Of a stretch of DNA of 64,000 nucleotides, positions 21,450 to 37,499 are shown one piece after another. A model generated the notes under the pieces. It ran no database searches. It was not told the DNA's origin and worked only from the letters and a program-made list of their open reading frames with translations. Each line of letters begins with the position of its first letter. Position 1 is the first letter of the stretch. The position numbers and the translations under genes are program-made. The DNA lies in contig NZ_JAUSNR010000002.1 of assembly GCF_030656345.1 (NCBI RefSeq), positions 62,001 through 126,000 on the forward strand. Reading direction: 5' to 3'. Source of the DNA: Pseudotabrizicola sp. Its GTDB lineage: Bacteria > Pseudomonadota > Alphaproteobacteria > Rhodobacterales > Rhodobacteraceae.

Positions 21450-22628
21450 CTACGACATCTGAATGTGCCGCGCCAGCAGCCCGCCCAGCGCGCTTTGTTC
21501 CGGGCGTATCCGCAAAACGGCAAGGCTGCTTTCCAGAATGTCGCGCGGGATGTCGCGACCGATCACTACGATCCGGCTGGTGCGGTCACCTTCTGGCCAG
21601 TGCGGCATGCTGACCGGCGGATGAAAGATGTGTTGCGCACCGTGAAAGGCGAAGGGGTGTTGGATGCCCTCTACATGCACGATGCCCTTCATGCGCAAGA
21701 CATCGGGGCCGCGCAGCGCGATCAGGGTATCGAGCCAGAAATCGAAGATGTCCGCCGGGATCGGATCGTCGATGATGGCCGAGACAGACGTGATGCGGCT
21801 GTCGTGCAGGCTGAGAGCGGCAGTCGGCGCAGGCCTGTGAAACCCCATCGAAAGGCCGGCAAACGGGTCTGCGGCGGGGTTCGGGGCGAACAGCCCATAG
21901 GTGGGGTTGCCGTGACCGATGGGCTGGGCAGGCGGCGTGGGTCTGGGTGCCGCATAGGCAGCGACATTGACCCAGGAGAGGGTTTGCGCGGGATCGGCGT
22001 CTGCCTGCAGGCCGCTGATGCCGAACAGGGTGCCGGGTGCCACGCGGCCTTGATTGGCGGTGATGCGGGCGGCACCGGGGTTGATCTGGGCCAGACGGGT
22101 TTCGAACCGGCGCAGCTCGCTTGGGGTGACAAGGTCGGTCTTGGTCAGCACGATCCGGTCGGCAAGGGCAATCTGGTTCACCGCCTCGAACTGCGCGTCC
22201 AAGCTGCGTGGCCCGGTGGCGGCACAGGCCGTGGTGACGACGCCGTCCAGCCGAAAGGCCGCTGCCAGTTCGCGCTCGATCAACAGAGTGTGCAGGATCG
22301 GGCCGGGGTCGGCCAAACCTGTCGTCTCGATCACCACGCGGTCAAAGGCCACTTCGCCCAGCGCCTGACGGCGCAGCAGCGCCAGCATGGCAGTCACCAG
22401 GTCGCCCCGGATCGTGCAGCACAGGCACCCGGATTGCAGCAGGACCATCTCTTCGGTCGCTTCTTCTATCAGGTCGTGATCAAGGCCTATATCACCGAAT
22501 TCATTGATAATCACCGCCACTCGCCCCATGCCGGAATCACGGATCAGGTGGTTCAGAAGTGTGGTTTTGCCAGACCCGAGGAACCCGGTCAGCAGCGTGA
22601 CCGGAATGGGCAATGCGGGGGCTGTCAT
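21450..22628 (-). CDS. COG0523 (CobW/ZigA-type) GTPase, zinc-linked
   Basis: The 392-residue P-loop GTPase of the COG0523 metallochaperone family has Walker A G-F-L-G-S-G-K-T-T near residues 14-22, the metal-binding C-x-C-C motif (G-C-L-C-C-T) near residues 65-69, the guanine-specificity motif T-K-T-D/N-K-x-D as T-K-T-D-L, and a C-terminal CobW_C domain (W-P-E-G near the end). The ATG at 22628 is preferred over an upstream TTG. It is divergent from the hisI-like gene across a Zur-type palindrome. Members under Zur control (ZigA, ZagA) are thought to deliver zinc to priority enzymes when zinc is scarce. Confidence 0.85.
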   Translation of the reverse strand: MTAPALPIPVTLLTGFLGSGKTTLLNHLIRDSGMGRVAVIINEFGDIGLDHDLIEEATEEMVLLQSGCLCCTIRGDLVTAMLALLRRQALGEVAFDRVVIETTGLADPGPILHTLLIERELAAAFRLDGVVTTACAATGPRSLDAQFEAVNQIALADRIVLTKTDLVTPSELRRFETRLAQINPGAARITANQGRVAPGTLFGISGLQADADPAQTLSWVNVAAYAAPRPTPPAQPIGHGNPTYGLFAPNPAADPFAGLSMGFHRPAPTAALSLHDSRITSVSAIIDDPIPADIFDFWLDTLIALRGPDVLRMKGIVHVEGIQHPFAFHGAQHIFHPPVSMPHWPEGDRTSRIVVIGRDIPRDILESSLAVLRIRPEQSALGGLLARHIQMS

Positions 22629-22666
22629 GTCTGAGTGCGCCTTTCGTCCTGTCAATAATCACTTGC

Positions 22667-22679
22667 GTTATATTATAAC
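22667..22679. promoter_or_regulatory. Predicted Zur box 1
   Basis: GTTATATTATAAC is a near-perfect palindrome of the form GTTATANTATAAC, the core of proteobacterial Zur sites. It lies between the divergent COG0523 GTPase and hisI-like genes. The same core recurs at 26425-26437 before the Fur-family gene. It sits within a wider CTTGC...GCAAG inverted repeat (22662-22666/22690-22694). Confidence 0.8.
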
Positions 22680-22719
22680 ATTACATTATGCAAGCCGTTG
22701 ACACAGTCCGGAGCCCGTC

Positions 22720-23184
22720 ATGCATGCCATAGATTTTGCCCCCCGCACCAGCATCGCGCAGGTTGAGGAAGGCATGTGCCTTGCGCCACGGTTCGACGTG
22801 GACGGACTAATCCCGGTTGTCACCACGGACCGAACGACAGGCGAGGTGTTGATGATGGGGGTGATGACAGCCGAAGCCCTGCGCCTGACAATACAGGCGG
22901 GCGAGGCGCATTACTGGAGCCGGTCCCGCAAGTGCGTTTGGCACAAGGGGGCAACCTCGGGTCTTGTGCAGCGCGTGATCGAGATGCGGATCGACGATGA
23001 TCAGGATGCCGTCTGGCTGCGGGTCGAGGTTGCAGGCGGGGCGTCGTGCCATGTTGGTTACCGGTCGTGCTTTTACCGGGCTGTGCCGGTGGGGCAGGCG
23101 GGAGCGCTGCGGTTTGTCGAGCACGTCAAGGTGTTCAATCCGGTCGCGGTTTACGGCGATGCCCCAAACCCGACGGTGCTGTGA
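22720..23184 (+). CDS. Phosphoribosyl-AMP cyclohydrolase paralogue (HisI2-like) with altered zinc site
   Basis: The 154-residue protein matches phosphoribosyl-AMP cyclohydrolase, the third step of histidine synthesis: F-D-x-D-G-L-I-P-V-V, [15 protein letters not shown] and C-H-V-G-Y-R-S-C-F. Normal HisI binds catalytic zinc with three cysteines, the first within I-D-C-D-x-D. Here that segment is I-D-D-D-Q-D (residues 91-96), so Cys93 is replaced by Asp, while C110 and C117 remain. The Zur box upstream and the GTPase neighbour fit a HisI paralogue made when zinc is limiting. Whether it is zinc-independent is inference. Confidence 0.85.
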
Positions 23185-23585
23185 TGACAGTGCACCCTGC
23201 GCCTGCTGCCTGCCACCATGTCTTTGTCTGCACGGCATGTTGCGATGTTGGTGCCGATGATCTGCCGGGCGCAGCCTTGCTGCAGACCTTGCATCAGGCT
23301 TTCGCCGCTTGCGATTTGTCGAACACATTCACGGTGTCCGGCGTGCTCTGCATGGCTGGCTGCACGCGCCCCTGCACGGTGGGATTTGCCGCAAACGGCA
23401 AGGCGGCGTGGTTGTTCGGTGATCTCGGCCCCGCAGATTGCGCCGACATTGTCGCTTTCGCAGGTCTTTACGCAGTGCTGAATGATGGCTGGTGTTCGTC
23501 CACTGACCGCCCCGGCAAGCTGTCACGCAGTGCCCTTGCGCGAATCCCGTCTCTGCCGCTTTGGACGCGTGAGGGCGCACAATGA
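23184..23585 (+). CDS. DUF1636-family cysteine-rich protein
   Basis: The 133-residue protein has early cysteines C-T-A-C-C (about residues 18-22), then C-M-A-G-C-T-R-P-C in the centre and W-C near residue 108. The pattern fits DUF1636, small metal or iron-sulfur binding proteins of thioredoxin-like ferredoxin type with no settled function. Its ATG overlaps the hisI-like stop (TGATG) and its stop overlaps the next ATPase start, so it is in the same operon. It may act with the importer in metal or corrin handling; this is inference. Confidence 0.75.
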   Translation: MTVHPAPAACHHVFVCTACCDVGADDLPGAALLQTLHQAFAACDLSNTFTVSGVLCMAGCTRPCTVGFAANGKAAWLFGDLGPADCADIVAFAGLYAVLNDGWCSSTDRPGKLSRSALARIPSLPLWTREGAQ

Positions 23586-24346
23586 CGGAGCATCTTGTGG
23601 CATCGGGCCTCTCATGGGCACCGCGCGGTGGCACGCCAATCCTGCACAATGTCAGCTTTACCGTGCCACAAGGTCAGGTGCTTGCGATCTGCGGCGCGAA
23701 TGGTGCGGGCAAATCAACACTGCTACGGATGCTTTACCGCTATTTGCGCCCGGATGCGGGGCAGGTGCTGCTGGGCGGCACCGACCTGTGGGCGCTGAAC
23801 CCCCGTGTCGCTGCCCGCCGCGTTGCCGCCGTTCTGCAGGAACAGCCCACGGATTTCGCCCTGACCGTGCGCGAGATGGTGGGCCTTGGCCGCACCCCGC
23901 ACCGCGCAGGCTTTGCCGGGGCAGGGGCACGGGACGCCAAGGTCGTGGCCGCAAGTCTGCACCGGATGGATCTGGTGCGCTTTGCAGCCAAGCCCTTTGG
24001 CACACTGTCGGGCGGCGAGCGTCAGCGGGTGATGGTGGCGCGCGCATTGGCGCAGGAACCGGAACTGCTGGTGCTGGACGAACCGACCAACCATCTTGAC
24101 ATCCGCCACCAGCTGGACGTGCTGACCTTGCTGCGCGGTCTTGGCCTGACGGTAATCCTGACGTTGCACGATCTTACGCTGGCGGCGGAACATGCCGATG
24201 CGGTGCTGATCCTGCACCATGGGCGGCTGATTGCACATGGCGCGCCGCGCAATGTGTTGACCCCCGATATCATCAACCGCGCCTTCGACGTGACCGCGCG
24301 GATCGACACCACGGGACCCAGCCCGCGCTATTCCTTTCATCTTTAA
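23582..24346 (+). CDS. ABC ATP-binding protein, FecE/BtuD type
   Basis: The 254-residue ATPase has Walker A G-A-N-G-A-G-K-S-T near residues 38-46, signature L-S-G-G-E-R-Q-R, Walker B L-L-V-L-D-E-P-T-N-H-L-D and an H-loop in L-H-D-L-T. The T-N-H-L-D form is typical of iron-siderophore/cobalamin (FecCDE, BtuCD) importers. It is followed by a binding protein and a FecCD permease, so the importer is complete. The upstream Zur box suggests a zinc or zinc-chelate substrate. Confidence 0.9.
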   Translation: MTEHLVASGLSWAPRGGTPILHNVSFTVPQGQVLAICGANGAGKSTLLRMLYRYLRPDAGQVLLGGTDLWALNPRVAARRVAAVLQEQPTDFALTVREMVGLGRTPHRAGFAGAGARDAKVVAASLHRMDLVRFAAKPFGTLSGGERQRVMVARALAQEPELLVLDEPTNHLDIRHQLDVLTLLRGLGLTVILTLHDLTLAAEHADAVLILHHGRLIAHGAPRNVLTPDIINRAFDVTARIDTTGPSPRYSFHL

Positions 24347-24357
24347 CGGAGACCCCG

Positions 24358-25287
24358 ATGAAACTTGCCGCCCTTGCCTTGCTTCTGTCCGCCACGTCCG
24401 CCGCCGCGTTCCCCGTCACGGTGAGAAGCTGCGACCGCGACGTGACTTTTGAGGCCGCCCCGGCCCGCGCCGTTTCCAACGACGTGAACCTGACCGAGAT
24501 GATGCTGGTTCTGGGCCTGCGCGACCGGATGGTCGGCTATACTGGGATTTCAGGCTGGAAAACGCTTGATGCGCAGATGCGCGACGGCATTGCCGAATTG
24601 CCGGAACTGTCGGCCAAATATCCGACCAAGGAAGTGCTGGTCGGGGCCGAGCCTGACATTTTCTTTGCGGGCTGGAACTATGGCATGAAGGTCGGCGGTG
24701 AAGTCACGCCTGAAACGCTGGCTCCCTTTGGCATTCAGACCTATGAGCTGACCGAAAGCTGCATCCACATCGGCGCCAAGGACAAGGTTGCGATGGAGGA
24801 CATGTATAGTGACCTACTCAATCTGGGCACGATCTTTGGCGTGTCTGACCGTGCGACGGCGCTGGTTGATGGCTACAAGGCGCGTCTGGCCGAGGTGACG
24901 GCGGGCGTGGACCGCGCCAACCCCCTCCGCGTATTCGTCTATGACAGCGGCGAAGAGGCCCCCTTTACCGCCGGAAGATACGCCATGCCCACAGCCATGA
25001 TCGAGGCGGCGGGCGGCGTGAACATTATGGACGATGTCGAGAAAAGCTGGACCGAGATTGCTTGGGAGCCGGTGGTCGAACGCAACCCCCAAGTGATCGT
25101 CATCGTGAACTACGGCGATGTGACTGCCGAACAGAAGATCGCCTTCATGAAGACCAATCCGGCATTTGCGGGCATTGATGCGGTGGTGAACGACCGTTTT
25201 GTCGTGCTTGAATATGTCGAGGCAACGCCCGGGCCGCGCAATATCGCCGCGGTGGAAAAGCTGGTCGCAGGATTTGCTGCCAACTGA
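24358..25287 (+). CDS. ABC substrate-binding protein, FecB/BtuF type, predicted zinc-linked
   Basis: The 309-residue protein has a signal peptide (residues 1-18, ending A-A-A-F) and a class III binding-protein fold, with two lobes joined by a long helix. The mature protein has two notable cysteines, C24 in V-R-S-C-D-R and one in L-T-E-S-C-I-H, which could form a disulfide. Segments such as A-E-P-D-I-F-F-A-G-W and R-F-V-V-L-E-Y match periplasmic-binding domain PF01497. Histidines are sparse, so direct Zn2+ binding of the ZnuA type is unlikely; a metal chelate is more probable. Confidence 0.85.
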   Translation: MKLAALALLLSATSAAAFPVTVRSCDRDVTFEAAPARAVSNDVNLTEMMLVLGLRDRMVGYTGISGWKTLDAQMRDGIAELPELSAKYPTKEVLVGAEPDIFFAGWNYGMKVGGEVTPETLAPFGIQTYELTESCIHIGAKDKVAMEDMYSDLLNLGTIFGVSDRATALVDGYKARLAEVTAGVDRANPLRVFVYDSGEEAPFTAGRYAMPTAMIEAAGGVNIMDDVEKSWTEIAWEPVVERNPQVIVIVNYGDVTAEQKIAFMKTNPAFAGIDAVVNDRFVVLEYVEATPGPRNIAAVEKLVAGFAAN

Positions 25288-25336
25288 TCACGCGGCCCGC
25301 GCAACCTTTGCGCGGGCCATACCCCCGGAGGGCACC

Positions 25337-26386
25337 ATGATTGACAGCACGTTGACCCATGCCGCATCCCGTCGCCTGACCCTTGGTGTCGGGGCCTTGA
25401 TCGGCCTTTGCACCCTTGGCGCATCCATCCTTCTGGCCGTGGCGGTGGGCGCGGTGTCCATCCCGCTGCCAACGGTCGTGGGCGTTCTGGTGGGCAAGCT
25501 GATGCCGGGGATGGTCGAGGCCACATGGACCACAGGTGCCTCGGCGATTGTCTGGGAAATCCGCTTTCCCCGCGCGCTGCTGGCGGCGCTGGTGGGGGCG
25601 GGGCTGGGGCTGGTGGGAGCGGCCTTGCAAGCGGTGACGCGCAATCCGCTGGCGGACCCGCATCTGTTGGGTATCTCATCCGGGGCAGCGTTTGGAGCCA
25701 TTCTGGCGCTGTTGCACACCGGGTTGTTTCTGGGACTGCTGACGGTGCCTTTGCTGGCCTTTGCTGGCGCACTGGTGGCGGCGATGCTGGTGGTAGGGGT
25801 GGCGCAACTGGCGGGGGCGACCAGTGCGGACCGGCTGGTTCTGGCAGGCGTTGCCGTCAGCTTTATCGTGATGGCCGGGGCCAACGTTCTGATCTTTCTG
25901 GGTGATCCGCGCGCGACGCATACGGTGGTGTTCTGGATGCTTGGCGGCCTTGGCCTTGCGCAATGGGCGCATCTGATCTGGCCGCTGGCGGTGCTGGTGC
26001 CCACCGGCCTGTGGCTGTGGCTGCGCGCGCCCGAGATGAACGCGATGACAGTGGGTGATGAAACCGCCGCCACCCTTGGCATCGCACCTGCCCGGTTCCG
26101 GTTGCAGGTGTTTGTCGCAGGTGCGCTGATCACCGGAGTCATGGTGGCGTTTTCCGGGATCATCGGCTTTGTCGGCCTGATGATGCCGCATATTGTGCGC
26201 CTTGTGATGGGGGGCAACAACGCCCGCGTGCTGCCGTTTTCGGCCCTGTTCGGCGCGATTTTCCTGATCTGGGCCGATATCGTGGCCCGTGTTGTCATGG
26301 CGCCCGAAGATATGCCGATCGGCGTTGTGACGGGCCTGATTGGCGGCGTGTTCTTTGTCGGCCTGCTGGCGCGGCGCAGGATGTAG
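25337..26386 (+). CDS. FecCD/BtuC-type ABC permease
   Basis: The 349-residue permease has about ten hydrophobic helices. The family markers G-A-G-L-G-L-V-G-A-A-L-Q and the coupling segment R-N-P-L-A-D-P-H-L-L-G-I-S-S-G lie near residues 85-120, and G-F-V-G-L-M-M-P-H near residue 280. The ATG at 25337 follows GGAGGG and avoids a longer frame overlapping the binding-protein gene. Together with the ATPase and binding protein it completes a FecBCD-type importer. No TonB-dependent receptor gene occurs in the window, although a chelate importer would normally need one. Confidence 0.9.
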   Translation: MIDSTLTHAASRRLTLGVGALIGLCTLGASILLAVAVGAVSIPLPTVVGVLVGKLMPGMVEATWTTGASAIVWEIRFPRALLAALVGAGLGLVGAALQAVTRNPLADPHLLGISSGAAFGAILALLHTGLFLGLLTVPLLAFAGALVAAMLVVGVAQLAGATSADRLVLAGVAVSFIVMAGANVLIFLGDPRATHTVVFWMLGGLGLAQWAHLIWPLAVLVPTGLWLWLRAPEMNAMTVGDETAATLGIAPARFRLQVFVAGALITGVMVAFSGIIGFVGLMMPHIVRLVMGGNNARVLPFSALFGAIFLIWADIVARVVMAPEDMPIGVVTGLIGGVFFVGLLARRRM

Positions 26387-26424
26387 CGTTGCAAGGTGAC
26401 GCGTCGGTGCTTGTGGGATGTTAT

Positions 26425-26437
26425 GTTATAGTATAAC
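26425..26437. promoter_or_regulatory. Predicted Zur box 2
   Basis: GTTATAGTATAAC is a perfect 6-1-6 palindrome, 25 bp before the GTG of the Fur-family gene. Its core matches box 1 at every position except the centre. It probably autoregulates zur and the downstream GTPase unit. Confidence 0.8.
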
Positions 26438-26462
26438 CATCTTGCCGAACCGAGAGGCTGCC

Positions 26463-26903
26463 GTGACCAAGTCGATCCCGCCCCATCCAGTGACCGCTGT
26501 GCTGTCCGGCAACGATTTGCTGGTCTTTGATGTGCTGCGTGCAGCCAACGGCCCGGCTTCGGCCTATGACATTCTTGATCGCCTGAAGCCGGAACGCCCC
26601 CGCATTGCGCCGACGACAATTTACCGCGCGTTGGAGCACTTGATCCGTGCGGGGCGTGTGCGTCGCATTGAATCACTGAACGCCTATCTTGCGGCCACGG
26701 AGGCAGGTGACCGGGCGGTTGTCTTCGCGATTTGCGATGATTGCGGCCGGGTGCAAGAGCGCGATGCTGGTACCGAAGTGGGGCGCATCACCAAAGCGTT
26801 GGCACGCGATGGATTTCGCCCGACCCATCCGGTCGTCGAGGTGCACGGCCGCTGTGGCGATTGTGAAGCGGGCTCTAACAGCGTGGCAGGGGGCAAGCCA
26901 TGA
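26463..26903 (+). CDS. zur: Fur-family regulator, predicted Zur
   Basis: The 146-residue protein has an N-terminal winged helix (P-T-T-I-Y-R-A-L-E-H-L near residues 46-56) and a dimerisation domain with the two C-x2-C pairs of the Fur structural zinc site: C-D-D-C near residue 91 and C-G-D-C near residue 133. The histidine in P-V-V-E-V-H is conserved in Fur/Zur proteins. I chose the GTG at 26463 after CGAGAGG; the longer frame would start inside the Zur box. The palindrome before the gene and the zinc-sparing neighbours support Zur rather than Fur or Mur. Confidence 0.85.
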   Translation: MTKSIPPHPVTAVLSGNDLLVFDVLRAANGPASAYDILDRLKPERPRIAPTTIYRALEHLIRAGRVRRIESLNAYLAATEAGDRAVVFAICDDCGRVQERDAGTEVGRITKALARDGFRPTHPVVEVHGRCGDCEAGSNSVAGGKP

Positions 26904-27241
26904 CCGGCTTCAGCCTGATCGTGGCGGGGCTTGGCCTGCGGCTGGCTGTGGCAGCCCTTGTATCGGGCCTGCTCTGGGCGGCTTTTGCGCTGGGTGGCCT
27001 GAGCCATGCCCGCGATGTGGCCGCACTGATCACACAGATGAAGGCCGAGTCCATCACGGCCGTTTTCGTCGAAAACACCCCGGACAGTCGCCTGCTCGGG
27101 CAGATTCCTGCGGAAACCGGGGCAAAGGTTGGCGGCACGTTGTTTTCCGACGCGCTGTCTGGCCCGGATGGACCGGCCAGCACCTACCTGAACATGATGC
27201 GCCACACCACCGCCACCCTCACCGCCGCTTTGAAGGAATGA
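26900..27241 (+). CDS. Chimeric protein: membrane segment plus C-terminal lobe of a ZnuA/AztC-like binding protein
   Basis: The 113-residue frame starts at an ATG overlapping the zur stop. Residues 1-33 form a hydrophobic helix that matches no binding protein. From about residue 34 on (A-R-D-V-A-A-L-I, then A-V-F-V-E-N-T, A-E-T-G-A-K-V-G-G-T-L-F-S-D-A-L-S and T-Y-L-N-M-M-R-H) it matches the last third of cluster A-I zinc/manganese binding proteins, which are normally about 300 residues. Only the final Asp ligand (S-D-A-L) of the metal site is kept. It may be a decayed znuA/aztC or a membrane-tethered remnant with a new role. Confidence 0.7.
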   Translation: MTGFSLIVAGLGLRLAVAALVSGLLWAAFALGGLSHARDVAALITQMKAESITAVFVENTPDSRLLGQIPAETGAKVGGTLFSDALSGPDGPASTYLNMMRHTTATLTAALKE

Positions 27242-27243
27242 CC

Positions 27244-28206
27244 ATGTCCGCACAAATCCCCGTTACCGTTCTCACCGGCTTTCTGGGTGCCGGAAAGACG
27301 ACGCTCCTGAACCGTATCCTGACCGAAAACCATGGCCGCAAGTTCGCCGTCATCATCAACGAGTTTGGTGAGACCGGCATCGACAACGACCTTGTCACCC
27401 ATGCCGATGAAGAAGTGTTCGAGATGAACAACGGCTGCATCTGCTGCACCGTGCGCGGTGATCTGATCCGCATCATCGGCGGACTGATGAAGCGCAAGGG
27501 GCTGGATGGTATCCTGATCGAGACCACGGGACTGGCTGATCCTGCCCCGGTGGCGCAGACCTTCTACGTCGATGCCGACGTCGCCGCCCGCACGCGGCTG
27601 GATGCGATCCTGACGGTTGCAGATGCGGTAAACCTTTCCACCCATCTGGACGAAAGCCACGAGGCTGCCGAGCAGATCGCCTTTGCCGACATCGTGCTGC
27701 TGAACAAGACCGACCTTGTGGATGCCGAAACGCTGACCGCGGTCGAGGCCCGGTTGCGCGCGATCAACCCAACGGCAAAGATCATCCGCACCGCGCGCTG
27801 CGACGTGGACCTTGATCAGGTGTTGGGCCTGAAAGCGTTTGAGTTGGACCGTGTGCTGGAGATCGAGCCGGATTTCCTGACCGAAGACCATGCGCATGAA
27901 CATGATGACGCGGTCACAAGCATCTCGCTGCATTCGGATGTGCCGATGAACCCCGACGCCTTCCAGATGTGGTTCAGCCGCCTTCTGCGCGAAAAGGGGC
28001 AAGACCTGCTGCGGTCCAAAGGCATCATCGACATGGCGGGCGAGGATCAACGCTATGTCGTTCAGGGCGTGCATATGCTGATGGACGGCAACCTCTTGGG
28101 TCCGTGGCCGACCGACAAGCCGCGCCAGACCAGACTGGTGTTCATCGGCCGCAATCTGGCCAGCATGGGTCTGCGCGAGGGATTTGAGTCGTGCAAGGCG
28201 GCGTGA
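27244..28206 (+). CDS. COG0523 (CobW/ZigA-type) GTPase, second copy
   Basis: The 320-residue GTPase is closer to canonical COG0523 proteins than the 21450 gene. It has Walker A G-F-L-G-A-G-K-T-T near residues 12-20, the C-x-C-C motif (G-C-I-C-C-T) near residues 64-68, N-K-T-D specificity motif near residue 156, and a histidine-rich linker (E-D-H-A-H-E-H-D-D) before the CobW_C domain. That linker is a common metal-binding feature. It lies 2 bp after the binding-protein-fragment gene in the predicted Zur unit 2. Two paralogues in one cluster suggest different client proteins. Confidence 0.9.
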   Translation: MSAQIPVTVLTGFLGAGKTTLLNRILTENHGRKFAVIINEFGETGIDNDLVTHADEEVFEMNNGCICCTVRGDLIRIIGGLMKRKGLDGILIETTGLADPAPVAQTFYVDADVAARTRLDAILTVADAVNLSTHLDESHEAAEQIAFADIVLLNKTDLVDAETLTAVEARLRAINPTAKIIRTARCDVDLDQVLGLKAFELDRVLEIEPDFLTEDHAHEHDDAVTSISLHSDVPMNPDAFQMWFSRLLREKGQDLLRSKGIIDMAGEDQRYVVQGVHMLMDGNLLGPWPTDKPRQTRLVFIGRNLASMGLREGFESCKAA

Positions 28207-29243
28207 CGCTTCCACCACCGCTGACCCGCCCGCCTGAGCCCACTGCCATCGAAAAGGTAGGCCGGTATTTCGATTGCGACGCGGTTCCGACTGGGGCGGT
28301 GGCTGTCGGTGACAGCGTCTATGCCAGCTTCGGCGATGGGCAGATCCGGGTGTTCCGCCCGAACCTGCCGGTGCAGGAGGTCCCAGCGCACAGGGGCGCA
28401 ATCCTGTGCGTAGCCCGCCACACCTCGGGCGTTCTGACGGGGGGCGACGATGGCCGCGTCCTGCATCTGGATGCGGACAAGGGGATGACCGAACTGGCCC
28501 GGCACGGCGGCAGTTGGGTCGATTGTGTCGCCACGCACCCAAAGGGTGCGTGGGCAGCCTCGGTCGGCAAGACCGCGCATCTGACGGACGTTGGGGGCCG
28601 CGTTTACGCCCTTGATCACCCCAGCACAGTTGGCGGCATGGCCTTTGACCGTAAGGGCGGGCGGCTGGCCGTGGCGCATTATGGCGGCGTCACGCTCTGG
28701 ACCCGTGGCCGGCGCGACTGGAAGGCATCATCGCTGAAATGGGCAGGCAGCCATGGGGCGGTGACGTGGAGCCCGGACAACCGGTTTCTTGTCACCACGA
28801 TGCAGGAAAATGCCCTGCACGGGTGGCGGCTGCGCGACAAGGCCGACATGCGGATGTCGGGCTATCCGGCCAAGGTCAAGTCGATGGACTGGGTCGGAAA
28901 ACTGCCCCACCTCGCCAGCAGTGGCGCGCAAGAGGCAATCTGCTGGCCCTTTGATGGCGCAAATGGCCCAATGGGGAAGCGACCGTTGACGCTGTGCCAT
29001 GACGGCGACGCCCTGGCGACCGCAGTTTGCGGCTTGCCGGGCCACGACGCCGTGCTGACCGGGTTCGAGAACGGCGTCGTGCTTTACAGCGAACTCGACA
29101 TGGGTTTCGATCCCTGTGTGATCAAGCGCCGCTCCGGGGCTGCGATCACCCATCTGGTGGTGACGCCCGACACCGGCTGGATGCTTGCCGCCGCCGAGGA
29201 CGGGCTGGTGCTCTGGGCTCCCTTGGGCAGGACAGACCGCTGA
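28191..29243 (+). CDS. WD40 beta-propeller protein linked to the zinc cluster
   Basis: A 350-residue cytoplasmic protein without signal peptide or membrane segment. Repeated units of about 40-45 residues end in aromatic/acidic turns of WD40 type (for example G-G-D-D-G-R-V-L-H-L-D, A-V-T-W-S-P-D-N-R-F-L-V, A-A-A-E-D-G-L-V-L-W), giving about seven blades. The GTG at 28191 overlaps the end of the GTPase gene; GTG at 28203 is an alternative. Its coupling to a COG0523 GTPase suggests that it is a scaffold or client receptor for metal transfer. This is inference from position; no enzymatic motif is visible. Confidence 0.8.
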   Translation: MQGGVTLPPPLTRPPEPTAIEKVGRYFDCDAVPTGAVAVGDSVYASFGDGQIRVFRPNLPVQEVPAHRGAILCVARHTSGVLTGGDDGRVLHLDADKGMTELARHGGSWVDCVATHPKGAWAASVGKTAHLTDVGGRVYALDHPSTVGGMAFDRKGGRLAVAHYGGVTLWTRGRRDWKASSLKWAGSHGAVTWSPDNRFLVTTMQENALHGWRLRDKADMRMSGYPAKVKSMDWVGKLPHLASSGAQEAICWPFDGANGPMGKRPLTLCHDGDALATAVCGLPGHDAVLTGFENGVVLYSELDMGFDPCVIKRRSGAAITHLVVTPDTGWMLAAAEDGLVLWAPLGRTDR

Positions 29244-29524
29244 TGTTTGGCCTGTTCAAACGCAAAGCCCCCGCCGATCCGGTCGTGACAGACCGCGTGA
29301 AGCTGTGGGTCGCCAGCGCGATGGGTTTGTGCGACCGCGACACCATCATGCTGGCCGAACTGGACTGCCGCGACCCCGGCTGCCCCGATCTGGAGACTGT
29401 GGTCACTGTCATCCTCTCCGACCGCCGCCAGTTCGTCCTGCGGTTTCCCGGCCCGATGGCGCGCGTGACCGAAGAAGGTGTGCAGTCGCTTTTTGCCCAA
29501 GGCCCGGTCGGCCACACCGAATGA
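29243..29524 (+). CDS. Small conserved-looking protein of the zinc cluster
   Basis: The 93-residue protein starts with a basic segment (M-F-G-L-F-K-R-K), then D-R-V-K-L-W, a cysteine-containing core with M-G-L-C-D-R-D-T-I-M-L-A-E-L-D-C-R-D-P-G-C-P-D-L-E-T, and a beta-rich tail. The three cysteines (C-x12-C-x4-C) could bind metal. The ATG overlaps the WD40 stop (TGATG). I recall similar small proteins beside COG0523 genes but cannot name a family. It is the last gene before the insertion-sequence debris, so the unit may once have been longer. Confidence 0.7.
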   Translation: MFGLFKRKAPADPVVTDRVKLWVASAMGLCDRDTIMLAELDCRDPGCPDLETVVTVILSDRRQFVLRFPGPMARVTEEGVQSLFAQGPVGHTE

Positions 29525-29656: not shown

Positions 29657-30474
29657 CTACGCGGACATTTTCAGTTTCTGAGCGGGGTGAACCCGCCACT
29701 GCCCATGTTGGGGGCTCGTTGTTATAGGTCCATAGCCAGTCGGTGGCGATCTGCTGTGCCTCATCGATGGTTTCAAACTCTGATCGCCAAAGGCTTGCCA
29801 CGCCATTCGATGATCTGGTTCAGGGAACGGATGACCCGCTCTGCCGGCAGCGAGAAGTCGACCGTGATGTCCAGACCCTCACGGTCGAAATCGTCCAGCA
29901 CGTTCAGCAGCCGGAAATGGCGCCCGTCGCCGCGGTTTGAAGCGCAGGTTCAGCTCCAGCTCGCAGCATATCCTGTGGACCCGCTTGTGGTTCCAGATAT
30001 GGCCGTTGACGTTCCGCAGGTGCAGGAAGCACAGCCCGAGCCCCCAGGTCCTGTGGACATTCGTCAGCCCAACCAGCAGGTCGGCGATCATCTCGTTCTC
30101 TTCGTCGCGCTCCGGTCTGCAGCTCAAACAGGTCTCGCTGACGCCAAGCGCCCGGCGGGCCAGCGCGATGCTGTTCCCCTTCGTTGCCACCGCCTTCTCG
30201 GCCAGCTCCCGGCGCTGAGCAGGCGGCGTCACTTTTTCCAAGTGTCTCGAGAAGCAGGTCAGCCTGCATGCTCAGATCGGCAAACATGTGCTTCAGCCGC
30301 CGGTTCTCATCTTCCAGCGCCTTCATCTGGCTGATCATGGACGCATCGATGCTGCCATATTTCGCGCGCCATTTGTAAAAGGTCGTACTGCTGATCCCAT
30401 GCTCACGGCAAAACTCAGACGCGGCCAAACCGCCCCCGGCTTTCGGTGAAACGGCCCTTCTTCATCGGCATCAT
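29657..30474 (-). pseudogene. Degraded IS3-family transposase (OrfA/OrfB)
   Basis: Leftward fragments of an IS3-family (IS407/IS51-like) element. OrfA keeps E-F-C-R-E-H-G-I-S and F-Y-K-W-R-A-K-Y-G, but the N-terminal part after K-K-G-R-F-T-E is deleted with a frameshift. OrfB keeps its start (L-A-E-K-A-V-A-T-K), then jumps over the first catalytic Asp to [13 protein letters not shown] second deletion removes the residues between L-A-I-R-V and E-T-I-D-E-A-Q. The tail (T-Y-N-N-E, then N-M-G, then A-Q-K-L-K-M-S-A) needs two frameshifts. The element is clearly inactive. Confidence 0.85.
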
Positions 30475-31005: not shown

Positions 31006-33129
31006 ATGCAAAAAATTAACTATTTTCACGGATCCGGAATGGGAGACGGTATGGGCATGCTTCATCTGCAAGGAGGACGCGTGTCGCAGGCCGTCGGCTT
31101 GAGCCTGGGGGCGGTTGTCACGCTGTCCTGCATGGGCGCAACAGCTTTTGCGCAGGACCTGGTGTGCGATAGCGCGGCCCCGGTCGGGACAGAGGCATAT
31201 GAAATCTGTGATCTTGGCACGCTGGACACCGGAACGCGCAGCGGCGCATCGGGCATCAGTGCTGACGGGACTGTCGTGATCGGGTACGCCAACACCAGCG
31301 ACGGCATGCGCCCGTTCCGTTGGACGCAGAGTGGCGGAATGCAAAACCTTGGTGTGCTGTCCAACGCCCACACCACGGCAAGAGGCGTCAGTGCAGATGG
31401 TACTGTCGTGGTGGGTACCAGCTGGGATCGCGGATTCCGATGGGTTGAAGGTGTGGGACTGTCAGATATTGGCACTCTGGCCGGGGGGGACACCACGGCG
31501 AATGCGGTCAGTCCGGATGGATCTGTCGTTGTCGGATACAGCATGGTTTCAGATATCAAGCGTGCCTATCGCTGGACTGAAACCTCGATGGAAGCTCTCT
31601 TCGGCGGAGACCACAGCGAGGCCTTGGGCGTCAATTCTGATGGTACCGTCATCGTGGGACACTACTCCACCGGGTGGTGGGTCGCCTTCCGTTGGGTCGA
31701 AGGCGTTGGGATGCAGTCTTTGGGAAGCCTCGGTGGGTATGTCCGGAGTCAAGCGAACGCGGTGACCCCGGATGGTTCTATTGTTGTGGGTTCCGCTGCC
31801 ACCCCCGATGATTCAACACATGCCTTTCGCTGGGTCGCGAATGGCACAGGCGGTGTTTCCGGCAACCCCCAGATGGAAGACCTCGGCACGTTTGAGGGCG
31901 GAAGCAACAGCGACGCCACGGCTGTGAATGCCGATGGCACTGTCGTGGTGGGATCTTCCAACAATGGCGCATCAACCTGGGCATTCCGATGGGTTGAAGG
32001 CGAGGGCATGCAGAACCTTGGTGGATTGACCGGAGCATCCGACAGCATTGCCACCGGCGTGAGTGCCGACGGGTCTATCGTGGTGGGGGAGAGTGCAAGT
32101 TACGGAGATGATCACTTTGATATGGGGACAACCAGAGCCTTCATCTGGCGCGCTGGGAGCGGGTCGGATGGCGGTGGCACGATGGAAGACATTGCCAACC
32201 TCACCGCCTCTGTCCCGATCCTTGGCAATGACAGTGCGGTCGCACAAGCCGAACAGCAGTTTGCGCTGGGTCAGACCATGGGGCAGCAAGCTTTTGTGCA
32301 ATCCGGTCAGATGGTCATGTCTGCTCAGACCAATATCCAGCACACCGGGCGCAACCCGACGACGGTTGGCGCGCGCAATTCTTCGGTTGGCGCGATCAGC
32401 TTCGGGCGCGGGATCAGTGGCACAGTCACACTGGGCGCGACGCTCAGCCTGAGCGGCACCAGCCTGAAAAACAACGCGTTCGACATGGATACGGATGTGG
32501 GCGCAGCCCTGTGGGGCCAGTACAGCGCAGGGGGTGCCGCGCGCACAGGCCTGCAATTCAGCGGTGCAATCGGCTATATGACATCCGAGGGTGAAATCGC
32601 CCGTGGCCGTCTGTTGACAGATGTGCTTCTGGCGACAGGCTCTTCCACAGTCGAAACCCGGGCCGTACAGGCGAGCATTGGCCACGGGCTTGAGCATGGG
32701 GACTGGCTGATCACATCGCAGATTGGCATCGCGCATTACGACACCCGCCGCGAGGCCTATGCCGAAACCGGCGCCAGCTTTAACGCCAGCTATGACGAGA
32801 TGCGCAGCAGCCGGACCGTGGCAACGTTGGGTGTGACCGGCGCGTTTGACGTAAGTGAGCGTGGCCGTCTGGCACTCGGAGTTGGCGTCGACCGGGAACT
32901 GAACCCGGAACGTCCGCGCCTGACCGGGGCATCCGACATTCCCGGGCTGGCCACTTTCGATTTTGGTGGCACCTTCACACCGAACCGCACCCGCGGTTTC
33001 GCAACCGTTGACTACACCTATGCCTTTGAGAACGGGTCAAGCCTGACGGGAAATCTGCGGGTCGGCGACGCTGTCTATGGGACCACGCGTTCGGTGGGCG
33101 TTGGGGTCTCCTACAGCATGCAATTCTGA
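31006..33129 (+). CDS. HAF-repeat autotransporter (type V secreted outer-membrane protein)
   Basis: The 707-residue protein has a long N-terminal signal region (hydrophobic A-V-G-L-S-L-G-A-V-V, cleavage near A-F-A-Q, about residue 50). The passenger consists of seven to eight HAF-type repeats of about 40-45 residues with the pattern (A/S)-x-G-x-S-x-D-G-x-x-V-V-G followed by F-R-W (or A-F-R-W). From about residue 460 it becomes a beta-barrel translocator ending in S-Y-S-M-Q-F with a terminal Phe. It is probably a surface-exposed adhesin or passenger protein. It follows transposase fragments and ends at a hairpin, consistent with accessory DNA. Confidence 0.9.
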   Translation: MQKINYFHGSGMGDGMGMLHLQGGRVSQAVGLSLGAVVTLSCMGATAFAQDLVCDSAAPVGTEAYEICDLGTLDTGTRSGASGISADGTVVIGYANTSDGMRPFRWTQSGGMQNLGVLSNAHTTARGVSADGTVVVGTSWDRGFRWVEGVGLSDIGTLAGGDTTANAVSPDGSVVVGYSMVSDIKRAYRWTETSMEALFGGDHSEALGVNSDGTVIVGHYSTGWWVAFRWVEGVGMQSLGSLGGYVRSQANAVTPDGSIVVGSAATPDDSTHAFRWVANGTGGVSGNPQMEDLGTFEGGSNSDATAVNADGTVVVGSSNNGASTWAFRWVEGEGMQNLGGLTGASDSIATGVSADGSIVVGESASYGDDHFDMGTTRAFIWRAGSGSDGGGTMEDIANLTASVPILGNDSAVAQAEQQFALGQTMGQQAFVQSGQMVMSAQTNIQHTGRNPTTVGARNSSVGAISFGRGISGTVTLGATLSLSGTSLKNNAFDMDTDVGAALWGQYSAGGAARTGLQFSGAIGYMTSEGEIARGRLLTDVLLATGSSTVETRAVQASIGHGLEHGDWLITSQIGIAHYDTRREAYAETGASFNASYDEMRSSRTVATLGVTGAFDVSERGRLALGVGVDRELNPERPRLTGASDIPGLATFDFGGTFTPNRTRGFATVDYTYAFENGSSLTGNLRVGDAVYGTTRSVGVGVSYSMQF

Positions 33130-33785: not shown

Positions 33786-35585
33786 TCAGGGCTGCATCAC
33801 ATAAGTGCCGGGGGCGGGACAAAGCGGGGCAAGGCCGTTATCCGGGGCACCCAGTGCAGGCGCTTGCACCAGACCACCGCCCTGCGCTGCCAGCCAGTCG
33901 GCCCAATGCGGCCACCACGAGCCGGGCTCTGGTTCGGTTTCTGCCAGCCAGGCGTCGGGGCCGACATAATGCGCCCCTGCCGGGCGGTGCGCGCTGCGGT
34001 AGTGCCGCCGCTTGTGGCCCGGCTCGCTCAGGATGCCGGTGTTGTGGCCGCCCTTTGTCAGCACGAAGGTCAGGTCGCAGTCGGTGAACAGCTTGGTTTT
34101 GTAGACTGACCGCCATGGCGCAATGTGGTCGGTTTCGGTGCCGATCACGAACAGCGGCACAGACAGATCCTTCAGCGCGATCACCCGGCCCTCGACGGCA
34201 AAGCGCCCCGCCGTCAGCCGGTTTTCCAGAAACAACCCACGCAGATATTGCGAATGCATGCGGGCCGGCATCCGCGTCGTGTCCGACAGCCAGACCCCTA
34301 TATCGGTGGGCACATCCTCGCGACCCAGAAAATAGCGCTGGACGGCACGGGTCCAGATCAGGTCTTCGGCGCGGATTGCCGCAAAGGCGCGGGCCATCTG
34401 CGGGCGGTCAAGATAGCCCTGTTCCCACATCAGATCTTCCAGAAACGCGACCTGACTTTCGTCGAGAAACAACAAAAGCTCGCCCGCTTCGGCGAAATCC
34501 ACTTGCGCGGCCATCAGGGTGACCGAGCCAAAGCGGTTGTCGCCGTCCCGGGCCATCGTCGCCGCTGTAATCGCCAGAATGGTGCCGCCAAGGCAGTAGC
34601 CGACGGCCTGAACCGGGGCGTCCGGCACGATTGTGGTCACAGCGTCAAGCGCGGCCATCACCCCGCGCTTGCGGTAATCCTCCAACGACAGGTCGCGCTG
34701 ATCAGAGGTCGGGTTGGTCCACGAGATCATGAAGACGGTGAAACCCTGCCCGACCAGATAGCGCACCATCGAGTTTTCGGGCGACAGATCGAGGATGTAG
34801 TATTTCATGATCCAGGCCGGGACGATCAGGATCGGGCGGGCATGGACCTGCGGCGTTTGCGGCGTGTACTGGATCAGCTCCATCAACTCATTGCGATAGA
34901 CGACCACGCCGGGCGTGCAGGCGAGATCCTTGCCAACCTGATAGCCTTCGGGGGCCGGGTCGCGCTGGCCGGTCAGGGTCTTGATCGCGTCATGGGCAAA
35001 ATGCGCTGCACCTTCGGTCAGGTTGCGGCCCCCGGTCCTGACCGTTTCGGCAATGATCTCGGGGTTAAGCAACGGCGCGTTCGAGGGTGACAGAACATCC
35101 AGCGTCTGGCGGGCCAGAAAACGCGTGCGCTCGGCGTCATCGGGGCGCAGGCCGCGCATCGGTTCGGTGGCATGGTCCCACCAGTCCTGCATCGCCAGAA
35201 ACCCCTGCTGCCACATCTGGAACGGCGGCTTTTGCCAGCCGTCATGGTTAAAGCGGTGGTCATAGGGCTTTGGGGCAAAGGGCGGGGCACCGCCGGGGCT
35301 GGTCGCCAGAGCCATCAGCTTCAACAGGCTGCGCTGTGCATGTTCGGCCAGTTCCAACTGACGGCCGGGCGCACGGCCAAGATGCTGGGCCCAGTCGCTC
35401 CACGCCTCGATGAAGGCATGGGTGGAGGTCCCGCCGGACAGCCGCGCAAACGCTGCTCGGGCGGCGCGGTCAAAATTCTGATGCGGATGTTCGGCTGGTT
35501 GTGGTGTCTCGATCACTGCCGGAAGCCCGGCGACCACCGGCGGGGAAACGGGGGGCAACTGCGGGGTTTTCCTGAGTCTGGTCAT
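33786..35585 (-). CDS. phaC: Poly(3-hydroxyalkanoate) synthase, class I (PhaC)
   Basis: The 599-residue cytoplasmic enzyme polymerises 3-hydroxyacyl-CoA into storage polyester. The alpha/beta-hydrolase domain has the lipase-like box G-Y-C-L-G-G with the catalytic Cys near residue 328, the Asp in T-E-T-D-H-I near residue 488 and the His in G-G-H-N-T-G near residue 517. Length and the N-terminal domain fit class I. The ATG at 35585 is preceded by AAGGAAAGAGG. No granule-associated (phasin, PhaR) genes are adjacent; instead it lies with ion transporters and Usp genes, suggesting that polymer synthesis here is tied to a redox or oxygen stress response. Confidence 0.9.
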   Translation of the reverse strand: MTRLRKTPQLPPVSPPVVAGLPAVIETPQPAEHPHQNFDRAARAAFARLSGGTSTHAFIEAWSDWAQHLGRAPGRQLELAEHAQRSLLKLMALATSPGGAPPFAPKPYDHRFNHDGWQKPPFQMWQQGFLAMQDWWDHATEPMRGLRPDDAERTRFLARQTLDVLSPSNAPLLNPEIIAETVRTGGRNLTEGAAHFAHDAIKTLTGQRDPAPEGYQVGKDLACTPGVVVYRNELMELIQYTPQTPQVHARPILIVPAWIMKYYILDLSPENSMVRYLVGQGFTVFMISWTNPTSDQRDLSLEDYRKRGVMAALDAVTTIVPDAPVQAVGYCLGGTILAITAATMARDGDNRFGSVTLMAAQVDFAEAGELLLFLDESQVAFLEDLMWEQGYLDRPQMARAFAAIRAEDLIWTRAVQRYFLGREDVPTDIGVWLSDTTRMPARMHSQYLRGLFLENRLTAGRFAVEGRVIALKDLSVPLFVIGTETDHIAPWRSVYKTKLFTDCDLTFVLTKGGHNTGILSEPGHKRRHYRSAHRPAGAHYVGPDAWLAETEPEPGSWWPHWADWLAAQGGGLVQAPALGAPDNGLAPLCPAPGTYVMQP

Positions 35586-35839
35586 CTTGGCCTCTTTCCT
35601 TCTGGACTGGGGGCACTGATCGGGGAATCGAAGAAAATCTGGTTACTCCGGCTGTGTCACAGGTCACCATTTCACCCCGGGTTTGATCTGCTTTTCATGG
35701 GGCGCACGAAGGCGGCGGCACGGACCCCTCTGTGCCCTGGCACCACAACCCTCGGACCCAATGATCGGCGGCCCTTTCTGGCCTGTCGTTGATTTATGTC
35801 ATGTTGCCCCGCAGGGTCGGCAAATGTCCTGCAACCCTG

Positions 35840-37414
35840 TCACACCCGGTGCGCGGTCCCAATCTGCGGGCCTGCCGCCTGTGCACCGTAGTGGGCGATC
35901 CTCTCGGCATGTTCTGCGACCCGGTCCAGCCAGCGCAGCGCATCGGTTTCCCGAAACACGTCCGCCGGGCTGATCAGGTCCGCATGGTTGCGCAGGAATG
36001 CCCCACGCCGGTGCTGCAGTGTGATGTCGCGGATGCGGTCAGACAGCCTGCTGGCCTGACCCGGCTTTGGTGGCCTGGACAGGGCTGCGGCAATGGCACG
36101 GGCAGGTCGTGCCAGTCGCGGGTTGTCGGCCAGATGGGCGATGCGGCCCCGCTCTTCGCTGCGCGCGGTCAGCCGGGTGATATGGTCGGTCAGATGCATC
36201 AGCGCGGCCATCCGGTTCAGCGGATCTGGCCGGTCCGGGGCCAGTTGCAGCCGTGAAAGCCAGGTTTCCAGCGCCTTGCGGGCTGGCTCTACCCGGCCGG
36301 GCAGCGCGGCCAGCGGGCGCAGGTCGCGTGCGCCCTGGGGGGCCAGTGCCGCCTGCAACGCCTGACCAATGGCCTCGGTGATGGCCGTCGCTGTGCGCGC
36401 GGCGGCATCCAGCGCGGTGCCGCTGTCTGCCAGAAGCTGCGGGTCCAGCGCCGCCGCCAGCGTAACCGGCCTGTCCGGCACCAGCCAGATCACCAGCGCG
36501 GCAAAGGGTCTTGTCAACGGCAGGAACAGGGCTGCGCCCAACACATTCAATCCGGTGTGAAACAGGACCAGTGCCGTCTGGTCATCCGGCCCGGTAAGCG
36601 GGTTGTGCAGCAGCGGTGCCAGCACGCTGATCAGCGGAAACGCCAGCATGGCCGAGATGGAATTGAACAACAGGTTGGCAACGGCTGCCCGCTGCATCTC
36701 GCTGCCGCCCCCCAGACTGGCCAGAAACCCGGTCAGCGTGGTGCCCATGTTCATGCCCACCACCATCGCCGCCGCCTGCCCGAAGGTCAGCGCACCAGAC
36801 CCCAGAAGCACAAGCGCCAACGCTATCCCCGCCGACGAGCTTTGCATGATCGCCACGAGGATCAGACCCGTCGCAACCATCACCAGCCGTCCGGCCCATG
36901 TGTCCCCGGGCAACCAGTCGGGTGTCACATAGGTCTCAACCCCCGCTGATGCGGCCTGCATCAGGTCCAGCCCGATGAAAAGCAGCGACAGCCCTGCCAG
37001 CATCCGGCCCAGCCGTGCGAGCTGGCCCTCACCAAGAATTCCCATCAGGGATGCCACAAACAGGACAGGCAGGGCCACGATCCCCAGCTTGAGCTTTACC
37101 CCGACCAGCATGATGATCCAGCCGGTCATCGTCGTGCCGATGCTGGCCCCATAGATCACACCCAGCGAATGCGAAAAACTGATCAGCCCCGCGCCGACAA
37201 AGCCGATGGTCATGACCGTGACGGCCGTCGAGGATTGCACAACAGCGGTGATGCCCGCCCCGGTCAGAACGCCGCGCAACGGGCTGGAGGTCATGCGCAA
37301 CAGCCAGCGTCGCAATCCATCCCCGGCAAGCGACCGCAACGCCGCTGTCATTGTCTCCATGCCGAACAGAAACAGTCCGATTCCGCCCAAGAATCCCAGC
37401 ACTCCGCCTGTCAT
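35840..37414 (-). CDS. Na/Pi cotransporter family protein
   Basis: The 524-residue protein starts with G-F-L-G-G-I-G-L-F-L-F-G and contains two inverted repeats, each with the NptA-type Q-S-S-S/T signature (Q-S-S-T-A-V-T near residue 60 and Q-S-S-S-A-G-I near residue 192). These form the sodium/phosphate transport core. Residues about 350-524 are a cytoplasmic helical PhoU-like domain. It is an inner-membrane transporter, and the substrate (phosphate) is by family. It follows the P-type ATPase gene after 85 bp, in the same direction. Confidence 0.9.
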   Translation of the reverse strand: MTGGVLGFLGGIGLFLFGMETMTAALRSLAGDGLRRWLLRMTSSPLRGVLTGAGITAVVQSSTAVTVMTIGFVGAGLISFSHSLGVIYGASIGTTMTGWIIMLVGVKLKLGIVALPVLFVASLMGILGEGQLARLGRMLAGLSLLFIGLDLMQAASAGVETYVTPDWLPGDTWAGRLVMVATGLILVAIMQSSSAGIALALVLLGSGALTFGQAAAMVVGMNMGTTLTGFLASLGGGSEMQRAAVANLLFNSISAMLAFPLISVLAPLLHNPLTGPDDQTALVLFHTGLNVLGAALFLPLTRPFAALVIWLVPDRPVTLAAALDPQLLADSGTALDAAARTATAITEAIGQALQAALAPQGARDLRPLAALPGRVEPARKALETWLSRLQLAPDRPDPLNRMAALMHLTDHITRLTARSEERGRIAHLADNPRLARPARAIAAALSRPPKPGQASRLSDRIRDITLQHRRGAFLRNHADLISPADVFRETDALRWLDRVAEHAERIAHYGAQAAGPQIGTAHRV

Positions 37415-37499
37415 GGACCGACCACGGCAACGGCATTCAGGTGCCGCAGGTCATGCTGACGGGTCATCGGCGGGCGATTTTCGTATGCGGCGATCTTTT

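Follow-up and report, generated by a model that had tools for sequence, protein, structure and literature searches.

Genes for COG0523 GTPases of subfamily 5 have been described in clusters with WD40 genes and znuABC, several of them preceded by Zur sites (PMC2770081). In Paracoccus denitrificans, zinc depletion raised a COG0523 gene with a Zur motif by 13.2-fold and two hypothetical genes downstream of it by 10.6- and 8.6-fold (PMC5387054). Here, we describe a locus of this kind in Pseudotabrizicola sp., an environmental alphaproteobacterium, at positions 21450 to 29524 of a 64,000-nt window, the whole stretch of DNA that was analyzed (positions 62,001 to 126,000 of contig NZ_JAUSNR010000002.1, GCF_030656345.1). 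Its interpretation as an accessory zinc-limitation island is well supported by sequence comparison. The type of island is already known, as the association of COG0523, WD40, znuABC, and Zur site was printed in 2009 (PMC2770081). Within the literature searched, two features are new: a group of Zur paralogues without the sensing site, to which the local protein Zur2 belongs, and the scar of a deleted aztABC zinc importer. A small protein of 93 amino acids (p93), as a family, and a small membrane peptide before aztA are also regarded as new, and neither was searched for in the literature. Gene starts in the island were assigned by reading the sequence, families with Pfam and NCBIfam profile cut-offs, and structures with AlphaFold2 (AF2) models.

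The palindrome GTTATANTATAAC matched exactly at 22667-22679 and 26425-26437. These were the only boxes with up to two mismatches in the 64 kb, where shuffled sequences gave a mean of 0.04 and none of 100 shuffles reached two. The two palindromes had been reported at these positions in a preliminary description, which also gave the limits of the island correctly. Operator 1 (GTTATATTATAAC, 22667-22679) lies between the divergent genes cobW1 and hisI2, 38 nt from the cobW1 start and 40 nt from the hisI2 start, and operator 2 (GTTATAGTATAAC, 26425-26437) lies 25 nt before zur2. The boxes therefore head three units, instead of flanking two as had been proposed: cobW1 on the minus strand, and hisI2-DUF1636-fecE-fecB-fecD and zur2-scar open reading frame (ORF)-cobW2-wd40-p93 on the plus strand. 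A scan of the 4.70-Mb host genome gave three perfect boxes, no box with a single mismatch, and seven with two mismatches. The third perfect box sits between the divergent znuA and zur-znuC-znuB, the classical place for a Zur operator, so that the Zur-type operators in the island promoters follow the znu/zur operator pattern. A two-mismatch box was also observed directly before a further COG0523 gene (G000:C3:51638; L085 9639).

The box count was extended to 33 loci fetched with the WD40 gene, among them L021, its copy L057, the fragments L069 and L070, and the Caballeronia locus L095. With at most one mismatch, 21 boxes were found in 13 of these loci against 0.2 expected from 10 shuffles per locus; L021 and L057 had no such box. 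Four cyanate-type loci were set apart, and no box was found in them.

The zur2 gene (26463..26903, plus strand) encodes a protein whose FUR domain scored 30.4 bits (cut-off, 23.1). Against the NCBIfam Zur equivalog it reached 83 bits, below the cut-off of 167, and this was still its best-scoring NCBIfam model. In Escherichia coli Zur (EcZur), structural zinc is bound by C103, C106, C143, and C146 and regulatory zinc by H77, C88, H96, and E111, and bases are read by Tyr45 and Arg65; the C88S mutant kept one zinc, with DNA binding and repression abolished (PMC4219657). Zur2 showed a complete structural site A with all four cysteines and retained Tyr45 and Arg65 (EcZur numbering), whereas its regulatory site B reads R, A, R, and E, with three of the four ligands lost. 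Because the H77, C88, and H96 positions are R, A, and R, it is improbable that the linked Fur-family gene encodes the zinc sensor.

We next placed Zur2 in a tree of 41 rows, made up of the best loci of the search (30 at most) and the island loci, not a random sample, with four copies dropped beforehand. When EcZur and the host Zur1 were set aside, 39 alphaproteobacterial rows remained. C88 was missing in seven of them, all of which also lacked H77, and two further rows lacked H77 only. The other 32 rows retained C88, including the Zur2 proteins of other islands (L013, L014, L018, L024, and more). Six of the C88-less rows, that of the window included, all come from COG0523-WD40 islands and clustered together (ultrafast bootstrap, 88; Shimodaira-Hasegawa-like approximate likelihood ratio test, 67; branch not starred). 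The seventh (G203), located before aztABC and a COG0523 gene, stood separately, and the tree needs two changes. Five genomes with a C88-less Zur2 were searched for a second Zur, and all five had one with an intact site (H-C-H-E, in four) or a near-intact one (H-C-Q-E, in G233). No paper on a Zur paralogue lacking site B was found in the open-licence literature searched.

In addition to zur2, the third unit contains a chimeric ORF of 113 amino acids (26900..27241, plus strand). Its first nucleotides overlap with the zur2 3' end, and it terminates shortly ahead of cobW2. The preliminary list of genes was right in its entries and omitted this ORF, and with it the deleted aztABC importer. Profile matches and comparison with Pseudorhodobacter antarcticus identified it as a deletion scar. 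Its front is a 36-residue hydrophobic stretch, to which the 76 C-terminal residues of the zinc-binding protein AztC are joined in frame; these residues match AztC/ZnuA to the profile end (PF01297; NF040870). P. antarcticus (L011) has the intact operon zur2-aztABC-cobW2-wd40-p93, with a 34-residue hydrophobic peptide, aztA, aztB, and aztC at the position of the scar. Its AztA passed the NCBIfam cut-off (233.8 versus 220), and the Azt models were the best ones for AztB (265.4 versus 280) and AztC (317.8 versus 350, scanned without the first residues), both below cut-off. Relative to this arrangement, the window has lost about 2.4 kb, with the beginning of the peptide and the part of AztC after about residue 255 (of 330) retained, so that only the AztC C terminus is left of a complete AztABC. 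No AztB-like permease was found in the host genome: of its three ABC-3 permeases, one is ZnuB and the other two form a pair on contig C49 that, by our own reading, lies in a gene set of manganese-importer form. The comparison with P. antarcticus shows that the island once held an AztABC zinc importer, whose deletion left the scar.

A small hydrophobic ORF precedes aztA at 6335-6439 of L011, and ORFs of about 32 to 46 amino acids do so in L054, L062, L090, L091, L192, L020, and L064. Such an ORF ended at or just before aztA in eight of ten AztA loci and not in L094 and L193, a count made with no chance control and with the manganese-type ATPase locus of the host set aside. This peptide may be a membrane component of the azt importer, and the front of the chimera is what the window retains of it.

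The scar raises the question of whether the whole island is decaying, as the loss of aztABC and of the Zur2 ligands might indicate. Transposase fragments lie right behind the island (29879-30428), and the island cobW2 was found in one of 16 genus genomes, the top-scoring match elsewhere in the genus having 46% identity over residues 4 to 212. However, none of the ten remaining reading frames is disrupted, and the ratios of nonsynonymous to synonymous substitution rates (dN/dS) of these genes against P. antarcticus were 0.065 to 0.24 (0.166 for cobW1); these values are rough, with dS of 0.8 to 2.3 in the window comparisons, near or above 1. Both island operators are perfect. In addition, the loss of H77 and C88 is common to P. 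antarcticus, which retains aztABC, and this loss therefore predates the aztABC deletion. A system on its way out, of which scar, degenerate zur2, and transposase pieces are the remains, is thus unlikely, although it is the best of the alternatives that we considered. From the distribution within the genus and the transposase fragments, we infer that the island was acquired.

The second unit ends with an ATP-binding cassette (ABC) importer of FecBCD type, encoded on the plus strand by a fecE-type ATPase gene (23582..24346; Pfam ABC_tran), a fecB-type periplasmic binding protein gene (24358..25287; Peripla_BP_2; PDB relatives 4mlz and 4n01), and a fecCD-type permease gene (25337..26386; FecCD), so that all three domains of such an importer are present. 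The PA2911-14 importer of Pseudomonas is likewise FecBCD-like. Upstream lies DUF1636 (23184..23585, plus strand; Pfam), a family reported as a thioredoxin-like [2Fe-2S] relative (PMC4520260). Zinc is the putative substrate of the island importer.

An island mainly for the uptake of cobalt, corrinoid, or iron chelate, with an incidental zinc link, would explain some of these data. Among NCBIfam models, the fecE-type ATPase came closest to those of F420-0, corrinoid, and heme importers, and the FecBCD-type proteins as a set scored nearest to F420-0-, corrinoid-, heme-, and B12-type models; no listed model reached its cut-off. DUF1636 stands beside CobW and a CobN-like gene (CobN by eye) in the cobalamin cluster of the host, and cobalamin genes adjoin the island of Gemmobacter. 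On the other hand, the island operators resemble the znu operator, relatives carry aztABC, and neither GTPase reached the CobW equivalog cut-off of NCBIfam. A zinc-linked ABC importer, PA2911-14, has also been reviewed for Pseudomonas (PMC10393844). We consider this explanation improbable, slightly more so than decay.

Next, we examined the GTPases and their neighbors. cobW1 (21450..22628, minus strand) encodes 392 amino acids from the ATG at 22628, an upstream TTG start at 22655 being possible, with Pfam cobW and CobW_C domains and the motifs GFLGSGKT, CLCC, and TKTD. cobW2 (27244..28206, plus strand; Pfam) is a YjiA relative with the motifs GFLGAGKT, CICC, and NKTD. Both products thus showed the CobW domains, P-loop, CxCC, and [NT]KxD of COG0523. 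The neighbors of cobW2 are those of subfamily 5, namely WD40 in the window and the azt importer, scarred here and intact in relatives. The WD40 gene (28191..29243, plus strand; Pfam WD40) overlaps the end of cobW2. The AF2 model of its product is a propeller with a mean predicted local distance difference test score (pLDDT) of 83.6, and it matched WD40 structures in general. AztD was absent from its 14 PDB matches, which are sequence matches only, and a signal peptide was not apparent by eye. In residues 205 to 228, 22 positions were invariant among 12 close sequences and few still so among 28 including distant ones, and the stretch was modeled with low certainty (block means of 64, 45, and 51). 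A segment that is invariant yet poorly modeled suggests a binding surface. The p93 gene (29243..29524, plus strand) encodes a small alpha-beta protein, which reached no Pfam cut-off and no NCBIfam model. Its AF2 model is helix-three strands-helix (mean pLDDT, 79.5) with weak fold matches, and a pair, Cys42/Cys47, was invariant in the 21 aligned sequences. Apart from p93, Pfam confirmed the families named at first: two COG0523, PRA-CH (HisI), DUF1636, ABC ATPase, Peripla_BP_2, FecCD, FUR, and WD40.

Relatives were gathered with the WD40 gene, giving 14 loci from named genomes. Of 295 family genomes, 22 had a match, which was close (E below 1e-90) in 10 including the host, and family genomes with weak matches (E above 1e-20) lay outside the locus set. 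Nineteen plasmid records had a match, of which six were opened, together with one p93 record, and L057, a copy of L021 (one contig), was removed from the neighborhood counts. Of 36 distinct loci, two were contig-end fragments; cobW2 lay directly upstream of wd40 on the same strand in 33 of the 34 assessable ones, the sole exception being Caballeronia L095. p93 followed wd40 in 20 of the 23 close loci that could be assessed, with none found in L016, L021, or L055, and in none of 10 distant loci, of which L068 has a weak match before the GTPase gene. The cobW2-WD40 pair was also present in plasmid records of Sinorhizobium, Skermanella, Devosia, and Lichenicola, and P. antarcticus and the plasmid of Gemmobacter aquarius are the named relatives with a fuller gene set. 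COG0523 proteins have long been suspected of being zinc chaperones, with unclear partners, and the GTPase-WD40-p93 module, with its fixed order, is a directly testable partner set.

Other contexts of these genes were observed. In L064 to L067, distant cobW2-WD40 pairs stand, with no Zur box, in gene sets read by eye as cyanate use (cyanase, ABC importer, and a HupE/UreJ-like gene). The WD40 relative in Caballeronia (L095, 7800-8900) lacks an accompanying COG0523 gene and is located ahead of a methane/alkene monooxygenase-type cluster. A Calothrix plasmid (L096) encodes a p93 relative at 7989-8255, with smtB, a CDF gene, and a cation ATPase gene in the vicinity.

The hisI2 gene (22720..23184, plus strand) encodes a second phosphoribosyl-AMP cyclohydrolase, which passed PRA-CH (97.1 bits) and the NF000768 equivalog (145.6 versus a cut-off of 126) and had 65 to 75% identity to eight relatives and 49% to the host's own HisI. 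The catalytic zinc of MtHISN2 is bound by Cys126, Cys142, and Cys149, which were called universally conserved in cyclohydrolases (PMC8102479). HisI2 lacks one of the three cysteines, as Asp stands at the Cys126 position. This position was Asp in all 18 distinct rows of the HisI2 (D-D-D) type and Cys in all 18 ordinary HisI rows among the 30 loci listed, the copies L097, L099, and L100 being dropped. The conservation of zinc ligands stated for Zur-linked HisI paralogues in PMC2770081 does not hold for the D-D-D type.

HisI2-type genes were found in 12 of 295 family genomes. In a class-wide draw, 84 of 385 genomes, host included, had a HisI2-like match (E of 1e-35 or better). The best 29 of the 83 matching genomes outside the family, chosen by HisI2 likeness and not as a random sample (L200 to L228), were all of the Asp type, at odds with the stated universality of this cysteine, and the stretches read around them contained no box with one mismatch or less. 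In three of these genomes, with 95% completeness or more (G384, G653, and G680), the D-D-D type was the sole HisI candidate. Because it is boxless there and the sole candidate in three genomes, the D-D-D type seems to be an ordinary HisI outside the family. We therefore rejected a locally evolved zinc-sparing enzyme, since the closest outside-family relatives share the Asp, and kept only the term alternative ligand type. The HisI2 loci L196 (G139) and L199 (G083) also contain a gene that, judged by eye, is a paralogue of cysteinyl-tRNA synthetase.

Altogether, the explanation that we favor is an accessory zinc-starvation island under the znu-linked Zur, with a zinc-blind Zur2 and a deleted AztABC, and on the sequence evidence we consider it probable as a whole. 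With zinc present, the Zur encoded beside znuABC would repress the three units through the two palindromes, because these match the znu operator, and under zinc starvation the units would be expressed. The FecBCD-type importer and DUF1636 would then take up a metal chelate, and the two COG0523 GTPases would act as metal chaperones, with the WD40 protein of the overlapping gene presumably serving as a scaffold for CobW2 and p93 as a further partner in most close relatives, contacts suggested by gene order. HisI2, with one thiolate zinc ligand fewer, could ease histidine synthesis. The initial idea of a zinc-scavenging and zinc-sparing system with undescribed WD40 and 93-residue partners is therefore upheld as to a zinc-limitation island with Zur boxes (the znuA/zur/znuC operator; 21 boxes versus 0.2 expected). 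It is not upheld as to sparing by HisI2, which is unproven with the missing cysteine common to its closest outside-family relatives, nor as to WD40, whose clustering with COG0523 was already in print (PMC2770081).

Zur2 would be made just when the zinc-sensing Zur lets go of the operator. Because the dimer site and the DNA-reading residues are kept and the sensing site is lost, the most likely role of Zur2 is to adjust the response independently of zinc sensing, either by weak repression or by poisoning Zur heterodimers. More specifically, it could be a working zinc-blind Zur, made in starvation and acting on the same operators, where it would serve as a brake or, as a dominant partner, prevent the zinc-sensing Zur from binding DNA, a proposal that we hold as tentative. 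If it is true, the azt/COG0523/WD40 islands carry a two-Zur circuit not found in the literature searched. With a sensor-less Zur beside a normal one, the zinc response would be wired in a new way, and the pair would offer a natural experiment on how Fur-family proteins work without the sensing metal. That Zur2 is instead an ordinary local zinc-sensing repressor, as its family, its own operator, its best NCBIfam score (though below cut-off), its site A cysteines, Tyr45, and Arg65 would allow, is the least probable alternative, given R, A, and R at the sensing positions, the grouping of six island-borne C88-less rows (ultrafast bootstrap, 88; likelihood ratio test, 67; the seventh separate), and the loss of repression in EcZur C88S (PMC4219657).

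Several observations weigh against the favored explanation. The estimated contamination of the assembly is 7.8%, and 20 of the 33 WD40 loci were boxless at one mismatch or less. The scarcity of the island cobW2 in the genus, the HisI2 ligand change shared with boxless loci of other families, and the F420-0, corrinoid, and cobalamin links of the importer and DUF1636 also count against it. Among the ten intact genes, zur2 has the highest dN/dS (0.24, the rest being 0.065 to 0.17), and the N-terminal backbone contacts of its product appeared weak by eye. The C88-less relative L062 also lacks Arg65, which is likewise lost in two of the C88-containing rows. Since EcZur C88S loses DNA binding (PMC4219657), Zur2 might be unable to bind DNA.

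Beyond the island, the window contains a 707-residue autotransporter beta-domain protein (31006-33129) and, on the minus strand at 33786-40106, a PhaC-type synthase, a Na/Pi cotransporter, and a P-type cation ATPase in a row.

Finally, we compared the island with known systems. Like the Zur regulon of P. denitrificans (pden1338-1344, aztABCD, and zur-znu), the island with its host genome shows a Zur-motif COG0523 gene and two following genes, an azt importer (here a scar), and divergent znuA and zur, whereas P. denitrificans, as described in the available part of that report, has one Zur, an aztD gene, and hypothetical genes behind the COG0523 gene (PMC5387054). AztD neighborhoods similarly place a beta-propeller gene near genes for a ZnuA-type binding protein and Fur-family and CobW-family proteins; AztD is periplasmic (PMC6689063), whereas the island WD40 protein showed no signal peptide by eye and its gene overlaps a GTPase gene. 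The Gemmobacter aquarius plasmid NZ_CP028920.1 shares cobW1, hisI, Fur, a metal ABC importer, cobW2, WD40, p93, DUF1636, and the FecBCD-type importer, and differs in a kept azt importer, a partly rearranged order, and a third COG0523 gene with DUF1826. E. coli Zur (4mtd) and Zur2 are of the same family by sequence and share the four structural cysteines, Tyr45, and Arg65, whereas three of the four sensing-site ligands are replaced in Zur2. As in the clusters of COG0523 subfamily 5, a COG0523 gene stands beside WD40 with a link to znuABC and Zur sites; unlike those clusters as described in the available part of the source (PMC2770081), the island has a sensor-less Zur, p93, a D-D-D HisI, DUF1636 with a FecBCD-type importer, and a deletion scar.

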